This document shows, one piece after another, positions 21,018 to 32,571 of a stretch of 40,012 nucleotides of DNA. The stretch is taken from the NCBI GenBank assembly GCA_947381965.1, contig CANCXX010000043.1, forward strand, positions 1 through 40,012. The letters are read 5' to 3'. A program made the translations under genes and the position numbers. A model generated the notes under the pieces. That model saw only the letters and a list, made by a program, of their open reading frames with translations, had not been told where the DNA came from and did not search any database. The first letter of the stretch is position 1, and the number at the start of each line of letters is the position of its first letter. The DNA is from an uncultured bacterium. Its GTDB lineage: Bacteria; Bacillota; Clostridia; Lachnospirales; Lachnospiraceae.

Positions 21018-21128
21018 TAAATATAATTCCTGTGCAGCTTTTAAAAGAAGTTATTTTAGAGAAATAGTAAAGATGCTAAAATCAGGCTGCATATAAAAGT
21101 GCGGAAAGTGGAAGCGGGAGGAAGCCGG

Positions 21129-21824
21129 ATGAATGAGGTATTGCGGCAGGAAAAAAAGTATCTGATTAATATTGTAGACAGCAGGAAGTTATGTGCGCGC
21201 CTTGACAAAGTAATGAAAGAGGATAAGCATAATGGGTTGTACGGTTATCGTATTCGTTCCCTGTATTTTGACAGGCCTGATGACGGCGACTTTTGGGATA
21301 AAGTTGATGGCATGGAGCTTCGGAGAAAAATTCGGCTGCGCAATTATGGTCCGTCTACGGACTTTGCCATGCTTGAAATGAAGCAGAAGGAAGGGGCTTA
21401 TCAGAAAAAAAGGTCACTTCCGGTCAGAAAAAAGGATGCAATGGAGCTTTGCCGTGGTAATTATACTCCTCTTTTAGCTTATGGGGAAGGATTTGCGGCG
21501 GAGTGTTATGGCCTGATGAACAGTATGTGCTACAGGCCCCGCGCAGTGGTGGAATATCGGAGGATGGCATATGTTGCAAAGGAAAATCGTATACGGATTA
21601 CCATAGATGACCGTATCACGGCAACTGAGTCGTGTTTTAATATTTTTTCTCCGGCTTTATGTCAGTATCCGGTTCTGGATGACTTCAGCGTAGTGCTGGA
21701 AGTAAAGTATAATCGGTTTTTGCCTGGGTACATTAAGGATCTGCTGCGCTTTGCAGACCGTTCTGAATTTTCCGTCAGTAAATATTGTCTGTCAAGAAGC
21801 GCGGGGCTGCACTATCAGATGTAA
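21129..21824 (+). CDS. VTC-domain (polyphosphate polymerase-like) protein
   Basis: The 231-residue protein has the VTC/CYTH-type tunnel fold. Conserved basic and acidic strands are RQEKKYLINI at the N-terminus, YRIRSLYFDRPDD, KIRLRNYG, LEMKQKEGAYQKKRS, RPRAVVEYRRMAY, RIRITIDDRI and VVLEVKYNRFLPGYI. In yeast this domain makes polyphosphate from ATP at the membrane. Bacterial relatives are widely annotated by homology, and their product in operons like this one is not established. ATG 21129 lies 6 bases after GGGAGGA; a GTG ten codons upstream lacks a good SD. It leads a seven-gene operon with a GT2 synthase, so a nucleotide-dependent role in polymer making or its regulation is plausible. Confidence 0.85.
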   Translation: MNEVLRQEKKYLINIVDSRKLCARLDKVMKEDKHNGLYGYRIRSLYFDRPDDGDFWDKVDGMELRRKIRLRNYGPSTDFAMLEMKQKEGAYQKKRSLPVRKKDAMELCRGNYTPLLAYGEGFAAECYGLMNSMCYRPRAVVEYRRMAYVAKENRIRITIDDRITATESCFNIFSPALCQYPVLDDFSVVLEVKYNRFLPGYIKDLLRFADRSEFSVSKYCLSRSAGLHYQM

Positions 21825-21848
21825 ATGGGGTTGGAAGTATATTTTTGA

Positions 21849-21867
21849 TTTTGTGCCGGGCACAAAA
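21849..21867 (+). other. Small hairpin between the VTC and DUF4956 genes
   Basis: TTTTGTGC (21849-21856) pairs perfectly with GCACAAAA (21860-21867) around CGG. There is no T-run on the plus strand, so it is unlikely to end the operon. It may separate or stabilise segments of the mRNA. Confidence 0.4.
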
Positions 21868-21932
21868 GCCGCAGAATAAGAAGGGGATAAAGGTTCTTCT
21901 TTCTTGATGGAGGCGGCAGATTGGAGTTTTTT

Positions 21933-22610
21933 ATGAAACAGGAATTATTTGAAATGTTTGACAGGGCAAGCGACCTGCCAGTGGAAATTATTTTTTCTCG
22001 GCTTTTGGCGGCGTCGGTGATTGCCTGCTTTATCTTTTTGTCTTACCGTATTTCCCATGATGGGAGTATATACAGCAAAAAGTTTAATGTTTCGCTGGTG
22101 GTTTTGACGGTAATTACCACCACGGTTATGATTGTAATTGGAAATAATCTTGCCATGTCCCTGGGAATGGTGGGAGCGTTATCAATTGTAAGATTCCGTA
22201 CGGCAGTGAAGGATGTGAGAGATACGGTCTATATTTTCTGGACAATTGTAACAGGAATTTGCTGTGGGGCGGGAGATTATCTGGTGGCGGCGGCAGGAGG
22301 TTCCTTTGTATTTGCGCTTCTGCTTCTGTTTGGAAAAATCCGAAATGACAATCGCGTACTGCTGATTATCCGTGGGGCGAGAATGAATGAAATGCGGGTG
22401 GAATCGCTGATCTTTCAGCATTATTCTGCAAGAGCGTCGTTGCGGGTAAAGAATACGACAGAGACAGACGTGGAGTTCATTTATGAGATTAGCAAAAAAA
22501 TTCTGGACAAGGAGCGCAGAGCGGAGAGAAGCATTGCAGATGAAATTTATGAAATCGGAAATATAGAGTACTTTAATATTGTTACACAAAATGATGACAT
22601 CAGCAGTTAA
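21933..22610 (+). CDS. DUF4956 integral membrane protein
   Basis: The 225-residue protein has an N-terminal membrane half, with segments near residues 18-38, 52-72, 75-95 and 100-135, and a soluble C-terminal half. The hallmark of the family is MVGALSIVRFRTAVKDVRDT, an Arg/Lys/Asp-rich stretch between membrane helices. The cytoplasmic tail (RVLLIIRGARMNEMRVESLI onward) looks like a ferredoxin-like or ACT-like alpha/beta domain. The function is unknown, but members are repeatedly found next to VTC and CotH genes. The start is ATG 21933 after TTGGAG; the TTG four codons earlier sits in that SD and is less likely. It probably forms the membrane part of the polysaccharide machine. Confidence 0.8.
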   Translation: MKQELFEMFDRASDLPVEIIFSRLLAASVIACFIFLSYRISHDGSIYSKKFNVSLVVLTVITTTVMIVIGNNLAMSLGMVGALSIVRFRTAVKDVRDTVYIFWTIVTGICCGAGDYLVAAAGGSFVFALLLLFGKIRNDNRVLLIIRGARMNEMRVESLIFQHYSARASLRVKNTTETDVEFIYEISKKILDKERRAERSIADEIYEIGNIEYFNIVTQNDDISS

Positions 22611-22702
22611 TCTTTGCAGGATACAGGACAGGAATGTCTGATGTATAGGAAGTAGCTGCTGCATGGTTTGGCCTGGGGCGTGTTTGAAAAGGAAGGAGGC
22701 AG

Positions 22703-24172
22703 GTGAAAATAAAATATCAAATAGCAGGTGCGATTATGATAGCTGTCATGTTTAGCGCTGCTGTGCTGCTTCCAAGGGAAGGGAGGAACCAGAGCGGAAG
22801 GGTTCATCAGCATCTTACTGCCCGAAGGGATACAGGATGTGAGTGCGGCGGGGGACAATTATGCACCCATCTGCCCTTAGTTATGATAGATACCAAAGGA
22901 CAGGAAATACCAGGGCTGCCTACCGGGGAGCGGGACTGGTTTGGGCAGGCCTTATATACAAGGGCAGAAGATGGAAGTCCGGCAGTTGGTGTGAGCATAG
23001 CGGTGGTGGATGGAAGGGAGAAAAATAATCATCCAACAGATAAGCCTGATTTTGAGACAAACTGTCAGATTCATATTCATGGCAATTCTTCCAGAAGGTT
23101 TTCCAAGCTTTCTTATGGGCTTCGGTTTATGGATGAAGAGGGGCATAACAGGAAAATCCCTGTGATGGGAATGGCAGCTCATCATGAATGGGTTTTGAAT
23201 GGCCCTGTGCTGGACAAAACGCTGCTGCGCAACTATATGTGGTATAACATTGCCGGGGAGATAATGGACTATGCGCCAAATGTGCGGTTTTGTGAGCTTA
23301 TGATAAACGGAGAGTATCAGGGCGTATACCTGATGACAGAAAATATTACAAACGGAGGGGAAGAACGTCTCAATTTAAGCATTAATGTAAAAGGAGCGGA
23401 GGGAATTGGTTATCTTCTCCGGTGGGACCGTCCTACAGAGGCCGAATTACAATCTGTCAGGGATATTTATGCGTATTCAGAGAGAATTTGCCAGACCAGA
23501 CAGGATATTGCCATCCGGTATCCGGGAGCGGATAAACTGACCAAAGAGGTGGCAAAGAATATTGAACTTGATTATTCTGCCTTTGAAAAAGCGCTGTTTT
23601 CTTATGATTACAATACGGAAGCATATGGATACCGGAACTGGATAGATGTGGATAATTTTGTAGACTATTTTCTGATTAATGAGTTTACTAAAAATCTGGA
23701 TGCCGGAAGTTATTCTACCTATTTATATAAGGAAGTGGGAGAAAAATTCAGATTGTGCGTATGGGACTTTAATAATGCCTGCGATAATTACCAGGAGCAG
23801 GAAACGGGACTGGAAGGATTTTCAATGGTTGACCGGGCATGGTTCTTTATGCTTTTTAAAGATGAGGCTTTTGTAAGGCAGGTGTTAAAGCGTTATGAAC
23901 AGTTACGGGAAACCTTTTTCAGTGAAGAATATCTTTCAAACTATGTGGATGAAACCATTGCCTATCTGGGACCGGCAGTCAGTAGGAACAATGAACGGTG
24001 GAACGTAAAGTGGGAAGGGCTGGTTCCGGCGGAGAGGAACCTGCACAGTTATGAGGAAGCGGTAGAGCAGTTAAAAAACTGGATGCAGGGCAGGGGAGAA
24101 TGGCTGGATGAATATATCCATACCTTAAAGCAGTATTCCCACCCATCCAGAAACAAAGTTTATAATCCTTAG
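22703..24172 (+). CDS. CotH-family (secretory kinase-like) protein
   Basis: The 489-residue protein has an N-terminal signal anchor (about residues 5-22) and a large extracytoplasmic CotH domain. Family motifs seen are IHIHGNSSRRFSKLSYGLRF around residues 123-142, HEWVLNGPVLDKTLLRNYM, NGEYQGVYLMTENI, DYFLINEFTKNLDAGSYST and the metal-site region VWDFNNACDNY with D355. Characterised CotH of Bacillus spores is an atypical protein kinase that phosphorylates coat proteins outside the membrane. Here the partners are polysaccharide proteins, so the substrate may be an envelope protein or a glycan. The GTG start is close to its SD (AAGGAGG, 3 bases). Residues CECGGGQLC near 48-56 form an unusual cysteine cluster. 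Confidence 0.85.
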   Translation: MKIKYQIAGAIMIAVMFSAAVLLPREGRNQSGRVHQHLTARRDTGCECGGGQLCTHLPLVMIDTKGQEIPGLPTGERDWFGQALYTRAEDGSPAVGVSIAVVDGREKNNHPTDKPDFETNCQIHIHGNSSRRFSKLSYGLRFMDEEGHNRKIPVMGMAAHHEWVLNGPVLDKTLLRNYMWYNIAGEIMDYAPNVRFCELMINGEYQGVYLMTENITNGGEERLNLSINVKGAEGIGYLLRWDRPTEAELQSVRDIYAYSERICQTRQDIAIRYPGADKLTKEVAKNIELDYSAFEKALFSYDYNTEAYGYRNWIDVDNFVDYFLINEFTKNLDAGSYSTYLYKEVGEKFRLCVWDFNNACDNYQEQETGLEGFSMVDRAWFFMLFKDEAFVRQVLKRYEQLRETFFSEEYLSNYVDETIAYLGPAVSRNNERWNVKWEGLVPAERNLHSYEEAVEQLKNWMQGRGEWLDEYIHTLKQYSHPSRNKVYNP

Positions 24173-24218
24173 GCAATGAGAGATTACGGAACAGCAATCG
24201 TCCGGGAGGTGTCTTTAT

Positions 24219-26474
24219 TTGAATAAGTTTATTGTTGCGGTTTGCAGTTTATTGTTACTGCTGTTTTTGTGGAACGGCGCTTATTACTATTTGGGAATTT
24301 ATATTGATTTTAATCCGAATGCTCCGGTTACTTCTTTTATGAAAACAGAAGGCAAGGAGATTTTTATGGAGCAGGAGGGTGCATATAAGCCTTTTGAAAT
24401 CAGAGGGGTGGATATGGGGGTGGGGATTCCGGGACAATGGGCAACCAGTTATGCCATTGACAAGGAAACGTATCTGCGGTGGTTTGGGCAGATTCAGGAA
24501 CTGGGGGCAAATACCATCCGTGTTTATACCATCCTTCATGATGATTTTTATAATGCTTTTTATGAATATAATCAGGGAAGAGAGGACCCCCTGTATCTGA
24601 TTCATGGAGTATGGATTAATGATTACATTTTTAATTCCCACTGTGACGCTTACGATGAAGAACTGCTAGGACCATTGGAACGGGACTGTCGTACGGTGGT
24701 GGATATCATTCATGGAAAGAAAAATTTGTCTTTGGGAGAGGGCACCGGTTCCGGCAGTTATCGGAAAGACGTGTCCCGCTGGGTAATTGGTTATATTATT
24801 GGGGTAGAGTGGGAGAGCAGTCTGGTGGTTTACACCAACCAAAAAAGTGAAAACAGGAACGTATATAAGGGCGTATATCTTTATACGGATAAAGATGCGT
24901 CGCCTTTTGAGGCAATGCTTTGCAGGGTAGGGGATGGAATGATTGCCTATGAGAGCAAAAGGTATAAGCAGCAGCGGCTTATTGCTTTTACTAACTGGCC
25001 GGCCACAGATCCTTTTGTATATCCGGCTGCCTTATCCAGCTATAGGGAGAAGGTGGCTTGTGTGGACGGGGAGCATGTGAGAAGCACAGATCATTTTCAG
25101 GCGGGAATGTTTGCTTCTTACCATGTTTATCCATATTTTCCGGATTATCTGGAGCTGATGAAGGAAGTGGAGCGAGGTTCGGACCAGAAAGCGGAGAATG
25201 GAATGGAGCTGGTCATACAGAGAAATTTGGAATACAGGTTATCTTTGCTGGAAGGACCGGATATCAGGGATTATTTGGAGAAAGAAGATTATACGGATTC
25301 CCGCGGACGGTATAACACATATATAGCGTATCTTAGGGCCTTGAACAGATATCATACACTTCCGGTAGTGATTTCGGAGTATGGAGTCACTACCGGAAGG
25401 GGGATGGCCCAAAGGGATGTGAATACCGGACGCAATCAGGGCCATATGACGGAGCAGGAACAGGGATGGGCATTGGTTGACTGCTACCGGGACATTATGG
25501 ACGCCGGGTGCGCCGGAAGCTGTGTGTTTACCTGGCAGGACGAGTGGTTTAAAAGAACCTGGAATACCATACCTGCGGTGGATTTGGAAAATACGCCATA
25601 TTGGAGTGATTACCAGACCAATGAGCAGTATTTTGGCCTTTTAACCTTTGAACCGGGTAAGGAAGAAAGTGTCTGTTACGTAGATGGAAATATTTCAGAG
25701 TGGGGGCTGGAAGATATGGTGATGGAGGGGGAAGGGATGACGCTTTCCGTAAAGTATGATGAAAAATTCATATATTTTCTGGTAAAAAAAGAGAATTTTA
25801 ATCAGGAAAAAGATACCCTTTTTATTCCGATTGATGTTACGGACAAAAGTGGAAGCGTTTATTGCAGGGAGTATGATGTGGAGTTTTCCCGCCCCTGCGA
25901 TTTCCTCATAGTGATACATGGGCAAAAGCACAGCCGGGTGCTGGTGCAGGAACGTTATGAGGCGCTCAGAGCTGCCTATGGGGAGGAATATTATGGCACA
26001 AACCCATACCAAAATCCGCCGGAGCCAGACAGCCCTCATTTTGAACGTATTTATCTGCCCCTTGTGCTTAAAGAAATTACAGCAGGAAGGAAGGCGGCCG
26101 GAATAAAATATGAGACGGGGCAGCTTCGTTTTGGCAATGCTGACCCAAAGTCAGAAGACTTTGATTCACTTGCAGATTTTATTTTTGCAGGAGATTATGT
26201 GGAGATACGTATTCCATGGCAGCTTATAAATTTTTCCAATCCATCCAGGATGATGATTCATGATGATTATTATGAAAATTATGGAATTGAGAATCTTCAT
26301 ATAGAAAAAATGTATGTAGGAGCCGGATGTTTTGAAAAAGAAAAATACAAAATTATCCTGGAACCTGTTTCGCTAGATGGATGGGGTGAAAAAGTATCTT
26401 ATCATGAGAGGCTGAAAAAATCTTACTATATTTTGCAGGAATACTGGACAAAGCGGGATAACCTCCCGGCTTAG
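24219..26474 (+). CDS. Membrane-anchored glycosidase-like protein (clan GH-A type barrel)
   Basis: The protein is 751 residues long, with one N-terminal membrane anchor (about residues 4-26) and the rest outside the cell. Residues about 55-470 look like a TIM barrel: EIRGVDMGVGIPG, LGANTIRVYTI, then VVISEYGVTTGRG with Glu387 in the position of a retaining nucleophile, and GSCVFTWQDEWFKRTW. A beta-rich C-terminal domain begins near YVDGNISEWGLED (residue 488), resembling CBM9/DOMON-type modules. The combination suggests a hydrolase or transglycosylase acting on the polymer made by the GT2 synthase of the same operon. The start is TTG at 24219, 8 bases after GGGAGGT. The glycoside hydrolase family number is not certain. 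Confidence 0.7.
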   Translation: MNKFIVAVCSLLLLLFLWNGAYYYLGIYIDFNPNAPVTSFMKTEGKEIFMEQEGAYKPFEIRGVDMGVGIPGQWATSYAIDKETYLRWFGQIQELGANTIRVYTILHDDFYNAFYEYNQGREDPLYLIHGVWINDYIFNSHCDAYDEELLGPLERDCRTVVDIIHGKKNLSLGEGTGSGSYRKDVSRWVIGYIIGVEWESSLVVYTNQKSENRNVYKGVYLYTDKDASPFEAMLCRVGDGMIAYESKRYKQQRLIAFTNWPATDPFVYPAALSSYREKVACVDGEHVRSTDHFQAGMFASYHVYPYFPDYLELMKEVERGSDQKAENGMELVIQRNLEYRLSLLEGPDIRDYLEKEDYTDSRGRYNTYIAYLRALNRYHTLPVVISEYGVTTGRGMAQRDVNTGRNQGHMTEQEQGWALVDCYRDIMDAGCAGSCVFTWQDEWFKRTWNTIPAVDLENTPYWSDYQTNEQYFGLLTFEPGKEESVCYVDGNISEWGLEDMVMEGEGMTLSVKYDEKFIYFLVKKENFNQEKDTLFIPIDVTDKSGSVYCREYDVEFSRPCDFLIVIHGQKHSRVLVQERYEALRAAYGEEYYGTNPYQNPPEPDSPHFERIYLPLVLKEITAGRKAAGIKYETGQLRFGNADPKSEDFDSLADFIFAGDYVEIRIPWQLINFSNPSRMMIHDDYYENYGIENLHIEKMYVGAGCFEKEKYKIILEPVSLDGWGEKVSYHERLKKSYYILQEYWTKRDNLPA

Positions 26475-26476
26475 AA

Positions 26477-26704
26477 AGGGAATTGCGGAACTGGAAACAG
26501 CAAGGGACCGGACATATGTGCAGAGGAAAGAATGGATGTGAAACAGACAGGATTTGCTCTGCGGGAAAAGGCATATGGGAGGGGAATTGCGGAACTGGAA
26601 ACAGCAAGGGACCGAACATATGTGCAGAGGAAAGAATGGATGTGAAACAGACAGGATTTGCTCTGCAGGAAAAGGCATATGGAAGGGGAATTGCGGAACT
26701 GGAA
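26477..26704 (+). repeat. 104-bp-period tandem repeat, locus B
   Basis: Copy 1 (26477-26580) and copy 2 (26581-26684) differ at about four positions, and a third partial copy (26685-26704) stops just before the next gene. The array begins 2 bases after the stop codon of the glycosidase-like gene. Each unit carries a small frame reading MDVKQTGFALREKAYGRG then IAELE. In copy 1 the frame (from 26532) continues to 37 residues, and in copy 2 (from 26636) it ends IAELE-stop. The first 40 or so bases of a unit resemble the repeat at 1-182. Because 104 is not a multiple of three, the frame shifts from copy to copy, so a coding role is doubtful. Confidence 0.9.
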
Positions 26705-26712
26705 TAAGAAAA

Positions 26713-27822
26713 ATGAAAAGTGAATTATTATTGTTTGGTTATGGAATTGTATGTCTTTGTATGTTGGTTTTTAATGTTTTTTATAATATTGCATTAAAAC
26801 AAAATGACCGGAGAATGGTGCGAAAAACTTTGTGGATCAGGGAAAAGATAAGCGGACAGATGGCGCGGATTGCAGCAGGAGGAAAGGTGGAAGAGGCGCA
26901 TATGGCCTATTTAAAGCATTATCTTTCCCATGTTGGCAATTTAATTGCTTTTGACCATGCTTTGGAAGAATATTTCCCATCAGATGAAAAACAGATTCTG
27001 GATGATTACCGCCGTCAGATACAGCCGTTGTTTATACATCTTGCCCTTGTTTACAGAAAACGGAGCAATATGCAGGCAGCTTACTTTGCCCATTTTTTGT
27101 CCAAACACAACCAGAAACAGCAGATGTCATTGGACAGAGTGCAGGATATCCTTGTGGAATATATGAAAAAGGAAAGCCTGTATTGCCGTGTAAATGCGCT
27201 GCAAGCCCTTTATAATTCCGGCTCTGCGGAGAGTGTGGCAAAGGCGGTTACGCTGCTGGATAAGGAGGGCTGCTATATTCACGAAAAAATACTGACAGAT
27301 GGTCTTCTCACATTTACAGGAAGCCATGAAAAACTGGCAGGGCTTTTGTGGGAACGGCTTTTAGCATTTACCAATAAAACACAGATATCCGTACTTAATT
27401 ATATTCGGTATGAAACAGAAGATTACTGTGAGGGAATGTTTTCCATTATGACGGATATGAAAAAAGACAAGGAACTGCGGCTTTCGGCCATTCGTTACTT
27501 TGGGCGGTATTTTTATGCCCCGGCGAAGGAAGCCTTGTCTTCCTTTGCGGCTGATAAAAATCCCCTTAACTGGGAATATGCGGCAGTCAGCGCTTCTTCC
27601 CTGTCAAAGTATCCGGGGGAGGAGGTTACGGAAATATTGACAAATATGATGCACAGTCCTAACTGGTATGTGCGGTATAACGCAGCGGTCAGCCTTGGGG
27701 TTTTGGGGTTGGATTACCGGATACTTGCGCAGACAATTGGAGGTGAGGACCGTTATGCAAGGGAAATGCTTTTATACCAAATGGATGAACAGTATATGAA
27801 AAAGGAGAAGGCTTTGGCATGA
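26713..27822 (+). CDS. Membrane-anchored HEAT-like repeat protein
   Basis: The 369-residue protein has one N-terminal membrane segment (LLLFGYGIVCLCMLVFNVFY, about residues 5-24) followed by helical repeats. Later units such as YCRVNALQALYNSGSAESVA, LRLSAIRYFGRYFYAPAKEA and WYVRYNAAVSLGVLGLDYRI are HEAT-like. Such repeats usually form protein-binding scaffolds. ATG 26713 is chosen because upstream in-frame sequence is only the tandem repeat; its SD is poor, so it may depend on coupling or on the repeat RNA. It overlaps the GT2 gene by 4 bases (ATGA), which suggests the two proteins are made in balance and probably interact at the inner membrane face. Confidence 0.75.
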   Translation: MKSELLLFGYGIVCLCMLVFNVFYNIALKQNDRRMVRKTLWIREKISGQMARIAAGGKVEEAHMAYLKHYLSHVGNLIAFDHALEEYFPSDEKQILDDYRRQIQPLFIHLALVYRKRSNMQAAYFAHFLSKHNQKQQMSLDRVQDILVEYMKKESLYCRVNALQALYNSGSAESVAKAVTLLDKEGCYIHEKILTDGLLTFTGSHEKLAGLLWERLLAFTNKTQISVLNYIRYETEDYCEGMFSIMTDMKKDKELRLSAIRYFGRYFYAPAKEALSSFAADKNPLNWEYAAVSASSLSKYPGEEVTEILTNMMHSPNWYVRYNAAVSLGVLGLDYRILAQTIGGEDRYAREMLLYQMDEQYMKKEKALA

Positions 27823-29240
27823 GAGATGCTTTTCAGGTTTTTTTTAACTATGTGGGTATATTTTTTATTTTGTATATGGCAGGGTATGCCAGTTTCCTGT
27901 TTTTGTCCGTTACGGTAGGATCTTCATTTTTGTATGGTGCAAGGCGCAGGAATCTTTTGAAAAACGAACTGCAGGGAGATTACTATGTGCCTGTTTCCAT
28001 TATTGTTCCAGCTCACAATGAGAGTGTTACAATTGAAGCTACGATTCGCTCCCTGCTGATGCTGGATTATCGGCTGTATGAAATTATTGTGGTGGATGAT
28101 GGCTCTACGGATGAAACCGCTCAAGTGATGGAGAAGGCTTTTGGGATGCACAGGATTAACCGCCCTATCCAGAGAAAACTGCGGTGTCAGATGGTGGAGG
28201 AAATTTTTGAAACAAGTGACTACAAAGCGCCCATTACTCTGATACGGAAAAAGAACGGAGGAAAGGCGGATGCGCTGAATATGGGAATTAATGCCTCCCG
28301 TTACCCTTATTTTTTGTGTATGGATGCGGATTCCGTACTGCAGAAAGATTCCTTAAAAAAGATTGTGTATCCGGTACTGGAAGAAGATCAGATAGTGGCA
28401 GTTGGCGGTGCCGTACGGCCCTGTAATGGTGCGGAGATTGTGGATGGGCAGGTGGTGCAGTATCATATGCCCCGAAAGATTCTGCCTTGTATGCAGGTAC
28501 TGGAATATGACCGGTCTTTTTTGGCGGCACGGATTTTTTTTGATAAGTTTAATGGAAACATTATTATTTCAGGAGCCTTCGGATTGTTTAAAAAAAGCGC
28601 GGTAATTGACGCAGGCGGATACGATACATCCACTATGGGAGAGGACATGGAGCTGGTGGTAAAGCTTCATATGTTCTGCAGAGAGCATGGGATTCCCTAT
28701 AAAATACGGTATGCTTCTGACGCTGTCTGCTGGACCCAGGCGCCGGAGAAGCTGTCGGACCTTTGCAAACAGCGCCGGCGGTGGCATATTGGTTTATACC
28801 AGAGTATGATTTCCCACAGGAAGATTCTTGGAAACCCCAAATATGGAATGGTGGGATTTTTATCCTATTTTTATTTCCTTGTATATGAACTGTTTTCCCC
28901 TTACATAGAAGTGTTTGGCACACTGACCATAGTGCTTGCGTTTTTAATGGACTTTCTCAATGTGCCTTATATGCTTTTATATTCAGGAATTTACGTGGCT
29001 TTTTCGGCAGTATTGTCCCTAACGGCCTTTTTTGCCCGGATTTATACGATAGACTTAAAGCTGTCATTTACAGACGCCCTTAAAGCCATCGGTCTTTGTG
29101 CGCTGGAAGTATCCTGCCTGCGCTTTATTCTGGCATGGGTGCGGGCAACGGCGCTTTGGGGATATCGGAAGAAAAAGTCCGGCTGGGGGCATATTGAGCG
29201 GAAAAAAATTAATTACAGCAGCAGTGGAACAGGAATATAA
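27819..29240 (+). CDS. GT2 family processive polysaccharide synthase-like glycosyltransferase
   Basis: This 473-residue inner-membrane glycosyltransferase has a membrane helix at residues 8-35, then a GT-A domain with IIVPAHNE, VVDDGSTDE (D93, D94), MDADS (D169, D171), MGEDMEL with the base-like Asp and QRRRW at 318-322. Two to four membrane helices follow (about residues 345-440). This is the architecture of processive synthases such as those for poly-N-acetylglucosamine, hyaluronan or cellulose, which polymerise and export a beta-linked glycan from a UDP- or GDP-sugar. The sugar cannot be read from sequence. No cyclic-di-GMP PilZ domain is seen. It starts within the end of the HEAT-like gene and is the likely catalytic centre of this operon. 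Confidence 0.88.
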   Translation: MRDAFQVFFNYVGIFFILYMAGYASFLFLSVTVGSSFLYGARRRNLLKNELQGDYYVPVSIIVPAHNESVTIEATIRSLLMLDYRLYEIIVVDDGSTDETAQVMEKAFGMHRINRPIQRKLRCQMVEEIFETSDYKAPITLIRKKNGGKADALNMGINASRYPYFLCMDADSVLQKDSLKKIVYPVLEEDQIVAVGGAVRPCNGAEIVDGQVVQYHMPRKILPCMQVLEYDRSFLAARIFFDKFNGNIIISGAFGLFKKSAVIDAGGYDTSTMGEDMELVVKLHMFCREHGIPYKIRYASDAVCWTQAPEKLSDLCKQRRRWHIGLYQSMISHRKILGNPKYGMVGFLSYFYFLVYELFSPYIEVFGTLTIVLAFLMDFLNVPYMLLYSGIYVAFSAVLSLTAFFARIYTIDLKLSFTDALKAIGLCALEVSCLRFILAWVRATALWGYRKKKSGWGHIERKKINYSSSGTGI

Positions 29241-29334
29241 AACAGCAAGAAAGGGGCGCTTTTTAAAGCGGCCGGGAATAATTTTTCCGGTATGATGTAA
29301 AAATATTGCGGAAAGGAAAAGGAGAAGAACAGAA

Positions 29335-30231
29335 ATGAAAAAATGGAACTGGCTGATGGCTGGCGGCATTTTACTTTTGGGCCTTACAGTGACGGCGTTT
29401 GGCGCATGGGGAAAACAACGGCAGGAAGAGGAGCGTTTTGCAGGATTTGGAATGTTCAGCTGGAAGGAAGAAGCAATGAAAGATGAGGAAGCGAAAGCAC
29501 TGTCTGAATGTATTGACAGTGCTTTTGTGACGGAAATATATCAGTACTTTTCAGAAGAAAATCTGCTCTCCGGCACAGGAGCCTCTTTTGTCCGCAGGAT
29601 GGGGGAAAAAGGCACGGCAGTGTATGCGCTTATGGGGGAAGCGGCCTGGGCGTATGAAAAGGATGGCGCTTCATTAATCGAAAAAATACGGCAGGTGGCA
29701 GAATATAATGGGCAGCAGGAGCGCCAAGGGAGGATACAGGGGGTGATGGTGGATGTGGAGCCATACCTTTTGGAAGAGTGGGATCAGGGCAGTCAGGCCC
29801 GAAGCAGCCTTATGGAAGGCTATCTGCAGGGAATAGAATGCGCCTATGTATATGCGACAGGGAATAATTTAAAATTTCTTGTGTGCATACCAACTTTTTA
29901 TGATGCGACAAACAGAGAGATACTGGAGCGGCTGATTGCCAGCGCCTGTGATGGTGTGGCGGTGATGAATTACAACCGTACGGATGAATATGGACAGATG
30001 GCTATGGAAGTGGGATTTGCAAGGGAATATGAGAAGGAGGTTATCTGTATTTATGAGCTGCAAAAAGCAGGAAAACATGGGCTGGAAGAAATTAATACCT
30101 ATGCAGAGGCGGGGATGGATATGCTGAAAGCGTCAGCAGGGCGGCTGGAAAAACAGTTTGGATATGAGAAACTCCGGTTTGCTTACCATTATTATGAGCC
30201 ATTAAAGGAAATGTTACAGCTTCCTTTATGA
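29335..30231 (+). CDS. Membrane-anchored TIM-barrel-like protein, possible glycosidase
   Basis: The 298-residue protein has an N-terminal anchor (about residues 5-23) and an extracellular domain. VMVDVEPYLLEEW near residue 140, NLKFLVCIPTFYD and GVAVMNYNRTDEYG resemble the strand ends of a glycosidase-type alpha/beta barrel, with an Asp-x-Glu pair of GH18-like character. I cannot assign a family. It follows the GT2 gene by 94 bp with a good SD (AAAGGAGAAGA). As the last operon gene it could trim or release the exported polymer, as hydrolases do in other synthase-dependent systems. That role is inferred from context only. Confidence 0.55.
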   Translation: MKKWNWLMAGGILLLGLTVTAFGAWGKQRQEEERFAGFGMFSWKEEAMKDEEAKALSECIDSAFVTEIYQYFSEENLLSGTGASFVRRMGEKGTAVYALMGEAAWAYEKDGASLIEKIRQVAEYNGQQERQGRIQGVMVDVEPYLLEEWDQGSQARSSLMEGYLQGIECAYVYATGNNLKFLVCIPTFYDATNREILERLIASACDGVAVMNYNRTDEYGQMAMEVGFAREYEKEVICIYELQKAGKHGLEEINTYAEAGMDMLKASAGRLEKQFGYEKLRFAYHYYEPLKEMLQLPL

Positions 30232-31086: not shown

Positions 31087-31422
31087 ATGACAAAAGCAGA
31101 AATTTTAAAACAGGAAATTTTGAAACAGTACAAAAGTGTTAGGCAGTTTGCCATTGATATGGAGATTCCATACAGTACATTGGTGACAGCCCTGGACCGT
31201 GGAATTGAAGGGATGGCATATGGTACGGTAATACGTATGTGTGATCGGTTAAGCTTAAACCCGGTGGATTTCTCATCTCTTGAAAAGGGAGAGGTACTTG
31301 GAGAAAAAATTCTGGAAAACAGAGTTATGCAGTATTATATTCAGTTAAACAAGAAAGGACGCAAGAAAATACTTGAAATGATGGAGGATTACGTTCAGTT
31401 AGAGAAATATAAGGAGCAATAA
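31087..31422 (+). CDS. HTH (XRE-like) regulator upstream of glf
   Basis: The 111-residue protein has an N-terminal HTH of the XRE type: ILKQYKSVRQFAIDMEIPYS, then TLVTALDRGIEGMAYGTVIR and MCDRLSLNPVDF. A helical C-terminal tail (LNKKGRKKILEMMEDYVQLE) follows, typical of small phage-like regulators in Firmicutes. AGGAGG 9 bases upstream gives a strong start. The glf start codon is only 6 bases beyond its stop, and the SD for glf lies inside its end, so the regulator and the mutase are made together. Confidence 0.8.
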   Translation: MTKAEILKQEILKQYKSVRQFAIDMEIPYSTLVTALDRGIEGMAYGTVIRMCDRLSLNPVDFSSLEKGEVLGEKILENRVMQYYIQLNKKGRKKILEMMEDYVQLEKYKEQ

Positions 31423-31428
31423 GTTAAT

Positions 31429-32571
31429 ATGAACGGGCATTATGATTATTTGATCGTAGGAGCCGGACTTTTTGGGTCGGCTTTTTCTTATGAAATGACA
31501 AAACGGGGCAGGTCCTGTCTGGTCATTGATAAGCGCGGACATGTTGCCGGAAATATATATACCAGTGAAATACGTGGAATTCATGTGCATGAATACGGGG
31601 CACATATTTTTCATACTTCCAATCGTGAAATATGGAATTATATCAGCCAGTTTGCGGAATTTAACCACTTTATAAATTCGCCTTTGGCGGTTTATAAGGA
31701 TGAGATATATAATCTGCCTTTTAATATGAACACCTTCAGCAGACTCTGGGGAATTAAGACCCCCCAGGAGGCGAAGGAAATTATACAAAAACAGATAGAA
31801 GGTCTTTCTATCGGGGAGGCGGATAATCTGGAGGAGCAGGCGCTGTCTTTGGCAGGCAGGGATGTATACGAAAAGCTGATTAAAGGATATACGGAAAAAC
31901 AGTGGGGAAGAAGCTGCCGGGAACTGCCGGCCTTCATTATCAAGCGGGTGCCTCTTCGTTTTACCTATGACAATAATTATTTTACCGATAGATATCAGGG
32001 AATTCCCGTTGGGGGATACACAGCAATTATTGGCAAAATGTTAAAGGGTTCGGATGTTATGCTGAACACAGGCTACCGGGAATTTGTCAAAGAGCAGGAA
32101 GGTGCAGCCGCACGTGGAGAAGCTTTTATTTCTTATGATAAGGTTTTATATACAGGTATGATTGATGAATATTTTGACTATTGCCTGGGAAATCTGGAGT
32201 ATCGTTCTTTGCGGTTTGAAAAGGAGGATATGCCGGAGTGTGGAAATTATCAGGGAAATGCAGTTGTCAACTATACGGAAAGAGAGATCCCCTGGACCCG
32301 TATCATTGAGCATAAACATTTTGAATTTGGCACAGGAGAGGGCACAGTTATAACCAGGGAATACCCCGCACCATGGAAAAAGGGAGACGAGCCTTATTAT
32401 CCCATTAATGATGAGCGGAACAATCATCTTTTTGAAAAGTATCAGCAGCTAGCCCAAAAAGAAAGAAATGTTCTGTTTGGAGGAAGACTGGGGCAGTACC
32501 GTTATTATGACATGGACAAGGTAATTGAAGCAGCCCTGGACATGGTCAGTAAGGAATTGAATTTAAAGTAG
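31429..32571 (+). CDS. glf: UDP-galactopyranose mutase
   Basis: This FAD enzyme interconverts UDP-galactopyranose and UDP-galactofuranose, the donor for galactofuranose in surface polysaccharides. The 380-residue length is normal. The N-terminus has the FAD fold YLIVGAGLFGSAFSYEM, then VAGNIYTSE, HEYGAHIFHTSN, YTEKQWGRSCRELP, VPLRFTYDNNYFTDRYQ and GGRLGQYRYYDMDKVI at the end, all hallmarks. It acts in the cytoplasm. No galactofuranosyltransferase is adjacent, but the GT2 operon lies just upstream and a CapA-family gene downstream, so the product may feed a cell-surface glycan. Confidence 0.96.
   Translation: MNGHYDYLIVGAGLFGSAFSYEMTKRGRSCLVIDKRGHVAGNIYTSEIRGIHVHEYGAHIFHTSNREIWNYISQFAEFNHFINSPLAVYKDEIYNLPFNMNTFSRLWGIKTPQEAKEIIQKQIEGLSIGEADNLEEQALSLAGRDVYEKLIKGYTEKQWGRSCRELPAFIIKRVPLRFTYDNNYFTDRYQGIPVGGYTAIIGKMLKGSDVMLNTGYREFVKEQEGAAARGEAFISYDKVLYTGMIDEYFDYCLGNLEYRSLRFEKEDMPECGNYQGNAVVNYTEREIPWTRIIEHKHFEFGTGEGTVITREYPAPWKKGDEPYYPINDERNNHLFEKYQQLAQKERNVLFGGRLGQYRYYDMDKVIEAALDMVSKELNLK

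Follow-up and report, generated by a model that had tools for sequence, protein, structure and literature searches.

Two described loci are among those closest to the gene set analysed here, a run of seven plus-strand genes at positions 21129-30231 of a 40,012-nucleotide stretch of DNA from an uncultured bacterium of the Lachnospiraceae (contig CANCXX010000043.1; the whole stretch is called the window below). The genes encode, in this order, a VTC-domain protein, a DUF4956 membrane protein, a CotH kinase-like protein, a glycoside hydrolase-like (GH-like) protein, a HEAT-repeat protein, a family 2 glycosyltransferase (GT2) and a protein termed TIM. Table 4 of PMC2879425 lists NELoc-2 of Clostridium perfringens (CP4_0458-0468), a poultry pathogen locus of unexplained function, with genes for VTC, a "tubulin" of 222-226 amino acids, CotH (497 amino acids), a hypothetical protein (685 amino acids), HEAT (377 amino acids) and a GT2 "chitin synthase" (466 amino acids). 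The distribution of NELoc-2 is described in PMC5964661 and PMC11677781; its polysaccharide deacetylase was reported for 18 of 23 positive strains in one study, according to the available part of PMC11677781. The second is the Gram-positive pel locus, beside which the available part of PMC7112168 places CotH, a polyphosphate polymerase, DUF4956 and DUF4832. In Streptococcus intermedius, deletions of the accessory genes left Pel being made; a mutant of the MgtC/ACT gene produced more Pel and a CotH mutant less, and both mutants showed more than 50% less aggregation in artificial sputum (available part of PMC12345266). The authors of that 2025 paper state that the three-gene arrangement was not found outside Pel (PMC12345266).

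The operon of the window is real and conserved, and, as judged from its sequence, it is most likely a variant of the synthase-dependent exopolysaccharide systems that carries a portable phosphate module. By names, sizes and order, its gene list is already in print: an earlier note on this DNA knew of no system with this exact set, and this claim of novelty probably falls to Table 4 of PMC2879425. The note had also asked, beforehand, for a synteny check across Clostridia, and conservation of the unit proved to reach well past the strain of the window. At least 588 relatives were found when named genomes were scanned, the best 80 of which were analysed as named loci. In 67 of the 80, the six genes VTC-DUF4956-CotH-GH-like-HEAT-GT2 are complete, in identical order and on one strand, with median gaps of 16, 24, 20, 15 and -4 base pairs (bp). 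Among the other 13 loci, 12 run into the end of their contig as judged by coordinates; L102 does not. TIM lies within reach of the unit in 18/80 named loci. In a family sample, which overlaps with the named loci, the GH-like protein was present in 25/299 genomes, the genome of the window included; of 26 regions from the 24 other genomes, 19 possess the complete set of six core genes, a further two make up a single unit split between contigs and five have GH-like without VTC, DUF4956 and CotH (the trio). HEAT was found in 33/391 genomes of a class-wide sample (18 of them at E <1e-90, the window's genome included); because the loci from which the HEAT profile derives all carry the trio, HEAT may have been missed in distant loci. 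Among the named hosts are many Clostridia and also Paenibacillus, Holdemania and Eggerthellaceae. The six-gene unit is widespread but patchy, its recurrence in fixed order and strand is no chance, and TIM is an accessory that is absent near most units.

The synthase is encoded at 27819..29240 (plus strand; Pfam GT2 102.1 bits). The motifs that had led to its description as a processive-type GT2 are present throughout the family: D93, D94, D169, D171, E275, D276, Q318, R319, R321 and W322 were each found in 36/36 aligned relatives, and only residue 320 varies (arginine in 29, lysine in 7), so that the motif reads Q-R-R/K-R-W. The solved relatives that match the C-terminal half are processive synthases, including BcsA and chitin synthase, and the best NCBIfam model is PgaC/IcaA (TIGR03937; 150.9 bits). 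Hydropathy alone gives GT2 four hydrophobic segments, one N-terminal and about three C-terminal. The HEAT-repeat protein (26713..27822, plus strand; HEAT_2 39.2 bits) has one N-terminal transmembrane segment, and the earlier picture of a membrane HEAT protein overlapping GT2 was borne out: the two genes overlap by 4 bp in the window, touch or overlap in 52 of the 67 complete loci and are fused in L062. Moreover, when pairwise distances over 82 loci were correlated for 15 protein pairs, HEAT and GT2 ranked first with r 0.90, as against 0.48-0.80 for the rest (shared descent not controlled). Because of the gene overlap, the L062 fusion and this correlation, HEAT is the probable membrane-anchored partner of GT2. 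With a membrane GT2, processive motifs and a candidate co-transcribed partner, the operon probably belongs, by its predicted products, to the synthase-dependent exopolysaccharide class.

Pfam confirmed the identities first given to the VTC, DUF4956, CotH, HEAT and GT2 proteins. The VTC-domain protein (21129..21824, plus strand; PF09359 141.9 bits) is of the triphosphate tunnel type and soluble. Its profile matches yeast Vtc4 (3g3q) with an E value of 3.7e-5, and 13 charged positions, which from the alignment we take to be the tunnel residues of Vtc4, are invariant (each 35/35 relatives). It is therefore a candidate polyphosphate polymerase. The DUF4956 protein (21921..22610, plus strand; PF16316 46.7 bits) has an MgtC-like membrane part with at least three hydrophobic segments by hydropathy; its Pfam match to MgtC is weak (21.9 bits, below the cut-off) and the profile search found no solved structural relative. 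CotH (22703..24172, plus strand; PF08757 209 bits) carries an N-terminal signal or anchor, with a hydrophobic segment at residues 5-23. Its profile matches the spore kinase CotH 5jd9 (E 4.7e-7), although the catalytic part is covered by no more than a second, weak segment of the alignment. K135 (36/36), D333 (35/36) and D355 (36/36) are conserved among the relatives, and D333 and D355 are presumably the catalytic aspartates, as judged by alignment to 5jd9. Thus, from the Pfam score and the aspartates, this protein belongs to the PF08757 CotH kinase family and is a predicted kinase.

The seven genes are not one indivisible system: two modules, the synthase core (GH-like, HEAT and GT2) and the phosphate trio, occur apart. 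What stood of the original seven-gene proposal is the conserved set of six; TIM is accessory and the set is modular. In a phylum-wide sample, GH-like was present in 23/398 genomes. Twenty regions from 19 of the 22 other genomes with GH-like were compared; HEAT and GT2 accompany GH-like in 10 of them, the trio does so in 1 and TIM in 4, and the core is without the trio in 9/20. For example, a Deinococcus radiophilus plasmid carries only adjacent GH-like (annotated as a TPR protein), HEAT and GT2 genes, and a replicon of Paenibacillus cellulosilyticus carries TIM, two GH-like genes, HEAT and GT2; the trio is absent from the 20 kb examined. On a Planococcus maritimus plasmid, TIM, VTC, DUF4956, CotH, a hypothetical protein (GH-like), HEAT and GT2 are contiguous with TIM first, and the GH-like, HEAT and TIM proteins share 28.3-28.4% identity with those of the window. 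The seven-gene unit may travel on plasmids. Just downstream of it (L224, 14548-19297), an annotated Qat anti-phage system is present with a recombinase nearby. For TIM relatives on plasmids of hosts other than Planococcus, the gene context was uninformative.

The trio was followed from its own side by a class-wide VTC search, in which VTC was present in 97/196 genomes; 40 VTC loci were hand-picked from the matches listed. DUF4956 adjoins VTC in 39/40 of these and CotH lies within 4 kb in 15/40; none of the 40 lies near the GT2-HEAT core. When the genes around these loci were scanned with Pfam, no Pel family was present among the 25 matches listed of 97 and 124. Beside the pairs that lack CotH, Cthe_2159-type carbohydrate-binding proteins (PF14262) are frequent (12/65 downstream open reading frames, L184-L223). 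The genome of the window (96.66% complete and, by tool estimate, 7.31% contaminated) possesses five VTC genes, each with DUF4956 as its neighbour, and has six loci with CotH. The four further VTC-DUF4956 pairs lie at C16, C17 and C20 of this genome; three have CotH nearby and one is near a sulfatase-like open reading frame.

Neither the GH-like protein nor TIM of the window has a Pfam or NCBIfam match. The GH-like protein (24219..26474, plus strand) is predicted to be extracellular and anchored, and it shows a weak likeness to clan GH-A (GH2/GH5/GH72). PDB 9fz9 matches it around E387 (E 5.5e-4); the residue aligned to E387 is alanine in 9g4n, which suggests a nucleophile variant. E197 and E387 occur together in 72/82 operons. 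In hhalign comparisons, the GH-like protein gave 15% for GH5, 0.3% for GH18 and 2.8% for a xylose-isomerase-like control. In L063 (5002-10181), the GH-like gene is split in two by about 3 kb of other sequence, and the other unit genes look whole. TIM (29335..30231, plus strand) is an accessory extracellular protein and possibly a GH18-like barrel hydrolase. D140, E142, M211 and Y213 are present in 18/18 relatives, and its DVE and MNY motifs align with DxE and MxY of GH18. No significant profile match to GH18 was obtained (1/18 members at E 0.081), and hhalign gave 9% for GH18, 19% for GH5 and 0.4% for the xylose-isomerase-like control. Thus, the assignments of TIM to GH18 and of GH-like to GH72 did not reach proof in the profile and hhalign comparisons. 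Both proteins, like CotH and HEAT, have one hydrophobic N-terminal segment by hydropathy. The earlier picture of barrel-like proteins outside the membrane is supported; the labels "glycosidase" and "TIM-barrel" are weakly backed by sequence.

In most relatives, the window excepted, genes for predicted control by cyclic di-GMP (c-di-GMP) are linked to the unit. A gene for a sensor protein with an EAL (c-di-GMP phosphodiesterase-like) domain follows GT2 in 57 of the 76 named loci that have GT2. When 52 complete sensor proteins were scanned, EAL was found in 52, GGDEF in 50 and SBP_bac_3 in 18; the EAL glutamate is kept in 52/52 and the DD motif in 47/52. The strict GGDEF motif is present in 0/52, and we therefore reject the GGDEF domain as an active cyclase. 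GT2 is fused to the sensor-EAL protein in one genome (L052, on the same contig as L092), possibly by a lost stop or an assembly error. Among 38 neighbouring signalling proteins, picked from locus clusters and hence no measure of frequency, a receiver domain is present in 23, a GGDEF domain in 15 and an HD-GYP-type domain in 13. In 24/80 loci (L048, L076, L149 and others), the EAL gene is separated from GT2 by a gene for a coiled-coil protein of about 170 amino acids with, by eye, a DivIVA/GpsB-like N-terminus; a link to growth-site placement is possible.

A polysaccharide deacetylase (NodB-type, FN3-NodB) is in or beside the unit in 10/80 named loci, in 8 of them between DUF4956 and CotH. In these eight (L111, L115, L126, L130, L138, L143, L145 and L148) the protein is a lipoprotein-like Polysacc_deac_1 deacetylase, in some cases with FN3-like repeats. 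Because of the deacetylase neighbours and the PgaC/IcaA score, N-acetylhexosamine is most likely the sugar of the polymer; GH72 likeness favours glucan, and we rate N-acetylhexosamine as about twice as likely.

We consider it reasonably probable that the locus is a modular, c-di-GMP-linked, synthase-dependent exopolysaccharide operon with a plug-in phosphate module; most likely, the gene set makes an extracellular sugar polymer coupled to phosphate chemistry in gut bacteria. GT2, held by the membrane-anchored HEAT protein, would polymerise a nucleotide sugar in the cytosol and pass the chain through its own membrane segments. Outside, the anchored GH-like protein would receive the chain and remodel or merely bind it, and TIM, where present, may trim it. 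The cytosolic VTC protein would make polyphosphate, DUF4956 would couple this synthesis to the membrane, and the extracytoplasmic CotH may phosphorylate a surface protein or the polymer itself. The sensor of most relatives, of solute-binding type and with degenerate GGDEF and intact EAL, would lower local c-di-GMP and thereby turn synthesis down; in the window this neighbour was lost or never present. A precedent for the accessory genes is the pel locus of S. intermedius, where Pel level and aggregation change on deletion of CotH or of the MgtC/ACT gene (PMC12345266). Export, trimming and phosphorylation by the operon, as the earlier note had it, are what we infer as well. Its surface-polysaccharide operon stands in the synthase, HEAT and the phosphate trio; it missed the c-di-GMP link and the deacetylase, which both lie outside the window.

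Several observations weigh against this reading. The window has no adjacent EAL gene, and three EAL proteins are encoded elsewhere in its genome. GT2 falls below the equivalog cut-offs of PgaC/IcaA (150.9 vs 422.3 bits) and of CelA (TIGR03030; 50.7 vs 699.1 bits). VTC-DUF4956 is without CotH in 25/40 sampled VTC loci. PPK1 is present in the window's genome, and therefore VTC is not needed for bulk polyphosphate; that VTC is the cell's only polyphosphate maker is ruled out. As far as the available part of PMC12345266 reports, the S. intermedius VTC mutant is not singled out for altered aggregation or Pel level, and Pel is still made without the accessory genes. TIM aligns no better to GH18 than to GH5 and is absent near most units. 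The GH72/GH2 likeness of GH-like fits a substrate of glucan or another sugar equally with N-acetylhexosamine. Its putative nucleophile E387 is lost in 8/82 operons and Planococcus has neither of the putative carboxylates; therefore, hydrolysis cannot be the general role of the GH-like family. The hydrolase first placed in this system is accordingly doubtful for part of the family, and a binding or guiding role is as likely as catalysis.

Among other explanations, the trio may leave the polymer alone: CotH would phosphorylate surface or secreted proteins, and VTC-DUF4956 would be a phosphate- or ion-homeostasis pair co-regulated with envelope genes. For Bacillus cereus, the available part of PMC7112168 cites CotH as a protein kinase. 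VTC-DUF4956 also occurs in many settings, as the five VTC genes of the genome and the 39/40 sampled loci illustrate, none of the 40 is near the GT2-HEAT core, and the core exists as a gene set without the trio. However, in 67/80 named loci all three genes immediately precede the core, always in one order, and in streptococci and clostridia they are found beside pel as well (as described in the available parts of PMC7112168 and PMC12345266). We hold this explanation to be possible but doubtful. We give slightly less credence to the idea that the polymer is a beta-glucan and that GH-like is a bacterial counterpart of fungal GH72, lengthening or joining chains outside the membrane. PF03198 (GH72) weakly matches 18/49 GH-like relatives (best E 2.2e-5), GT2 also matches cellulose synthase structures, and the GxEW and SEYG motifs of GH-like resemble the catalytic motifs of GH72. 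However, when ten relatives were scanned singly, the three GH72 matches were below the cut-off, N-terminal and confined to profile positions 22-133 of 314; the window protein gave no match, so neither a score at the cut-off nor coverage of the catalytic region places it in GH72. The deacetylase in 10/80 loci and the scores for PgaC/IcaA (150.9 bits) vs CelA (50.7 bits) favour an N-acetylated sugar.

GT2 might also be a single-sugar transferase to a lipid or wall polymer, the operon then decorating the envelope. GT2 proteins are diverse and most NCBIfam matches are to non-processive transferases, at lower scores. However, the Q-R-R/K-R-W and GED motifs in 36/36 relatives, the C-terminal membrane segments, the matches of the C-terminal half to processive synthases (BcsA, chitin synthase) and the c-di-GMP-type and deacetylase neighbours make this very unlikely. 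The modular exopolysaccharide operon can be extended in one speculative direction, which we regard as unlikely: VTC-DUF4956 would make and export polyphosphate, and this polyphosphate would be the phosphoryl donor for secreted CotH. If so, this would explain how a kinase works despite the scarcity of extracellular ATP, and the trio would be a portable device that phosphorylates different exopolysaccharides (the GT2-HEAT polymer, Pel) or their surface proteins. In a wider form, where a Cthe_2159-type carbohydrate-binding protein replaces CotH, the polyphosphate, once exported, would be what is fixed to the cell surface.

The layout of the genes agrees with the first description of them. The ORF listing of the window (open reading frames, ORFs) shows 21129-30231 filled by seven plus-strand ORFs, with successive gaps of 96, 92, 46, about 238, -4 and 94 bp; one strand, short gaps and the 4-bp overlap were all as given before. 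The absence of a strong internal terminator also held: there are 18 terminator-like sites on both strands of the window (shuffle mean 9.1), and none of the 12 on the plus strand falls in the gaps between operon genes. The VTC ORF opens at a GTG at 21099, upstream of 21129, and the DUF4956 ORF has an ATG at 21933. The HEAT ORF opens at 26554, and the part homologous to the relatives begins at the ATG at 26713; this ORF is over-long because a direct tandem repeat of 104 bp (26474..26704, plus strand; 2.2 copies, 96% matches) opens the frame upstream. The GH-like/HEAT gap that holds the repeat is about 238 bp in the window vs a median of 15 bp in relatives. On the same strand 3' of the operon (31087-32571), two ORFs were recognised by eye, one short and regulator-like, the other resembling UDP-galactopyranose mutase; they are not kept beside the unit in the relatives examined.

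These results define a widespread, probable exopolysaccharide locus that is found chiefly in Clostridia and sporadically in Bacilli, Eggerthellaceae and Deinococcus. The operon is apparently uncharacterised in the literature searched, outside which subscription journals and preprints lay. Natural operon pairs, the core with and without the trio, make the roles of secreted CotH kinases and bacterial VTC proteins directly testable.

As compared with bacterial cellulose synthase (Bcs), the unit shares the processive GT2 motifs and the structural matches to BcsA; it differs in the CelA score of its GT2, only 50.7 bits vs a cut-off of 699.1. The systems for poly-N-acetylglucosamine and polysaccharide intercellular adhesin (PgaABCD, IcaADBC) are alike in that GT2 scores best to PgaC/IcaA and a deacetylase is occasionally present; PgaC/PgaD are linked to c-di-GMP. 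In place of PgaA/PgaD or IcaD/IcaC, however, the window unit has HEAT, GH-like and the phosphate trio, and its GT2 scores below the equivalog cut-off. Pel as the setting of the operon is not supported. PF11997 (DUF3492), which we take to be the PelF-type glycosyltransferase family, has no match in the genome of the window, which is 96.66% complete (this search covered that genome and not the relatives). Because the trio stands in the operon while this family is absent from the genome, the 2025 statement that the trio is confined to Pel is contradicted, and the published claim is corrected here. As far as the sources describe it, the Gram-positive Pel locus resembles the unit in the trio beside a synthase-dependent polysaccharide, in a deacetylase and in the c-di-GMP-related PelD; unlike the unit, it has pelDEADAFG without the GT2-HEAT-GH-like core. 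NELoc-2, as described in PMC2879425, PMC5964661 and PMC11677781, is without a TIM or EAL gene, and it has extras of its own, sigma and anti-sigma genes and a duplicated VTC-"tubulin" pair with a resolvase. Otherwise, its six genes are like those of the window unit in names, sizes and order, a comparison made by description only. From size and position, the "tubulin" would be DUF4956 and the 685-amino acid protein GH-like. The present analysis offers a framework for the function of C. perfringens NELoc-2.

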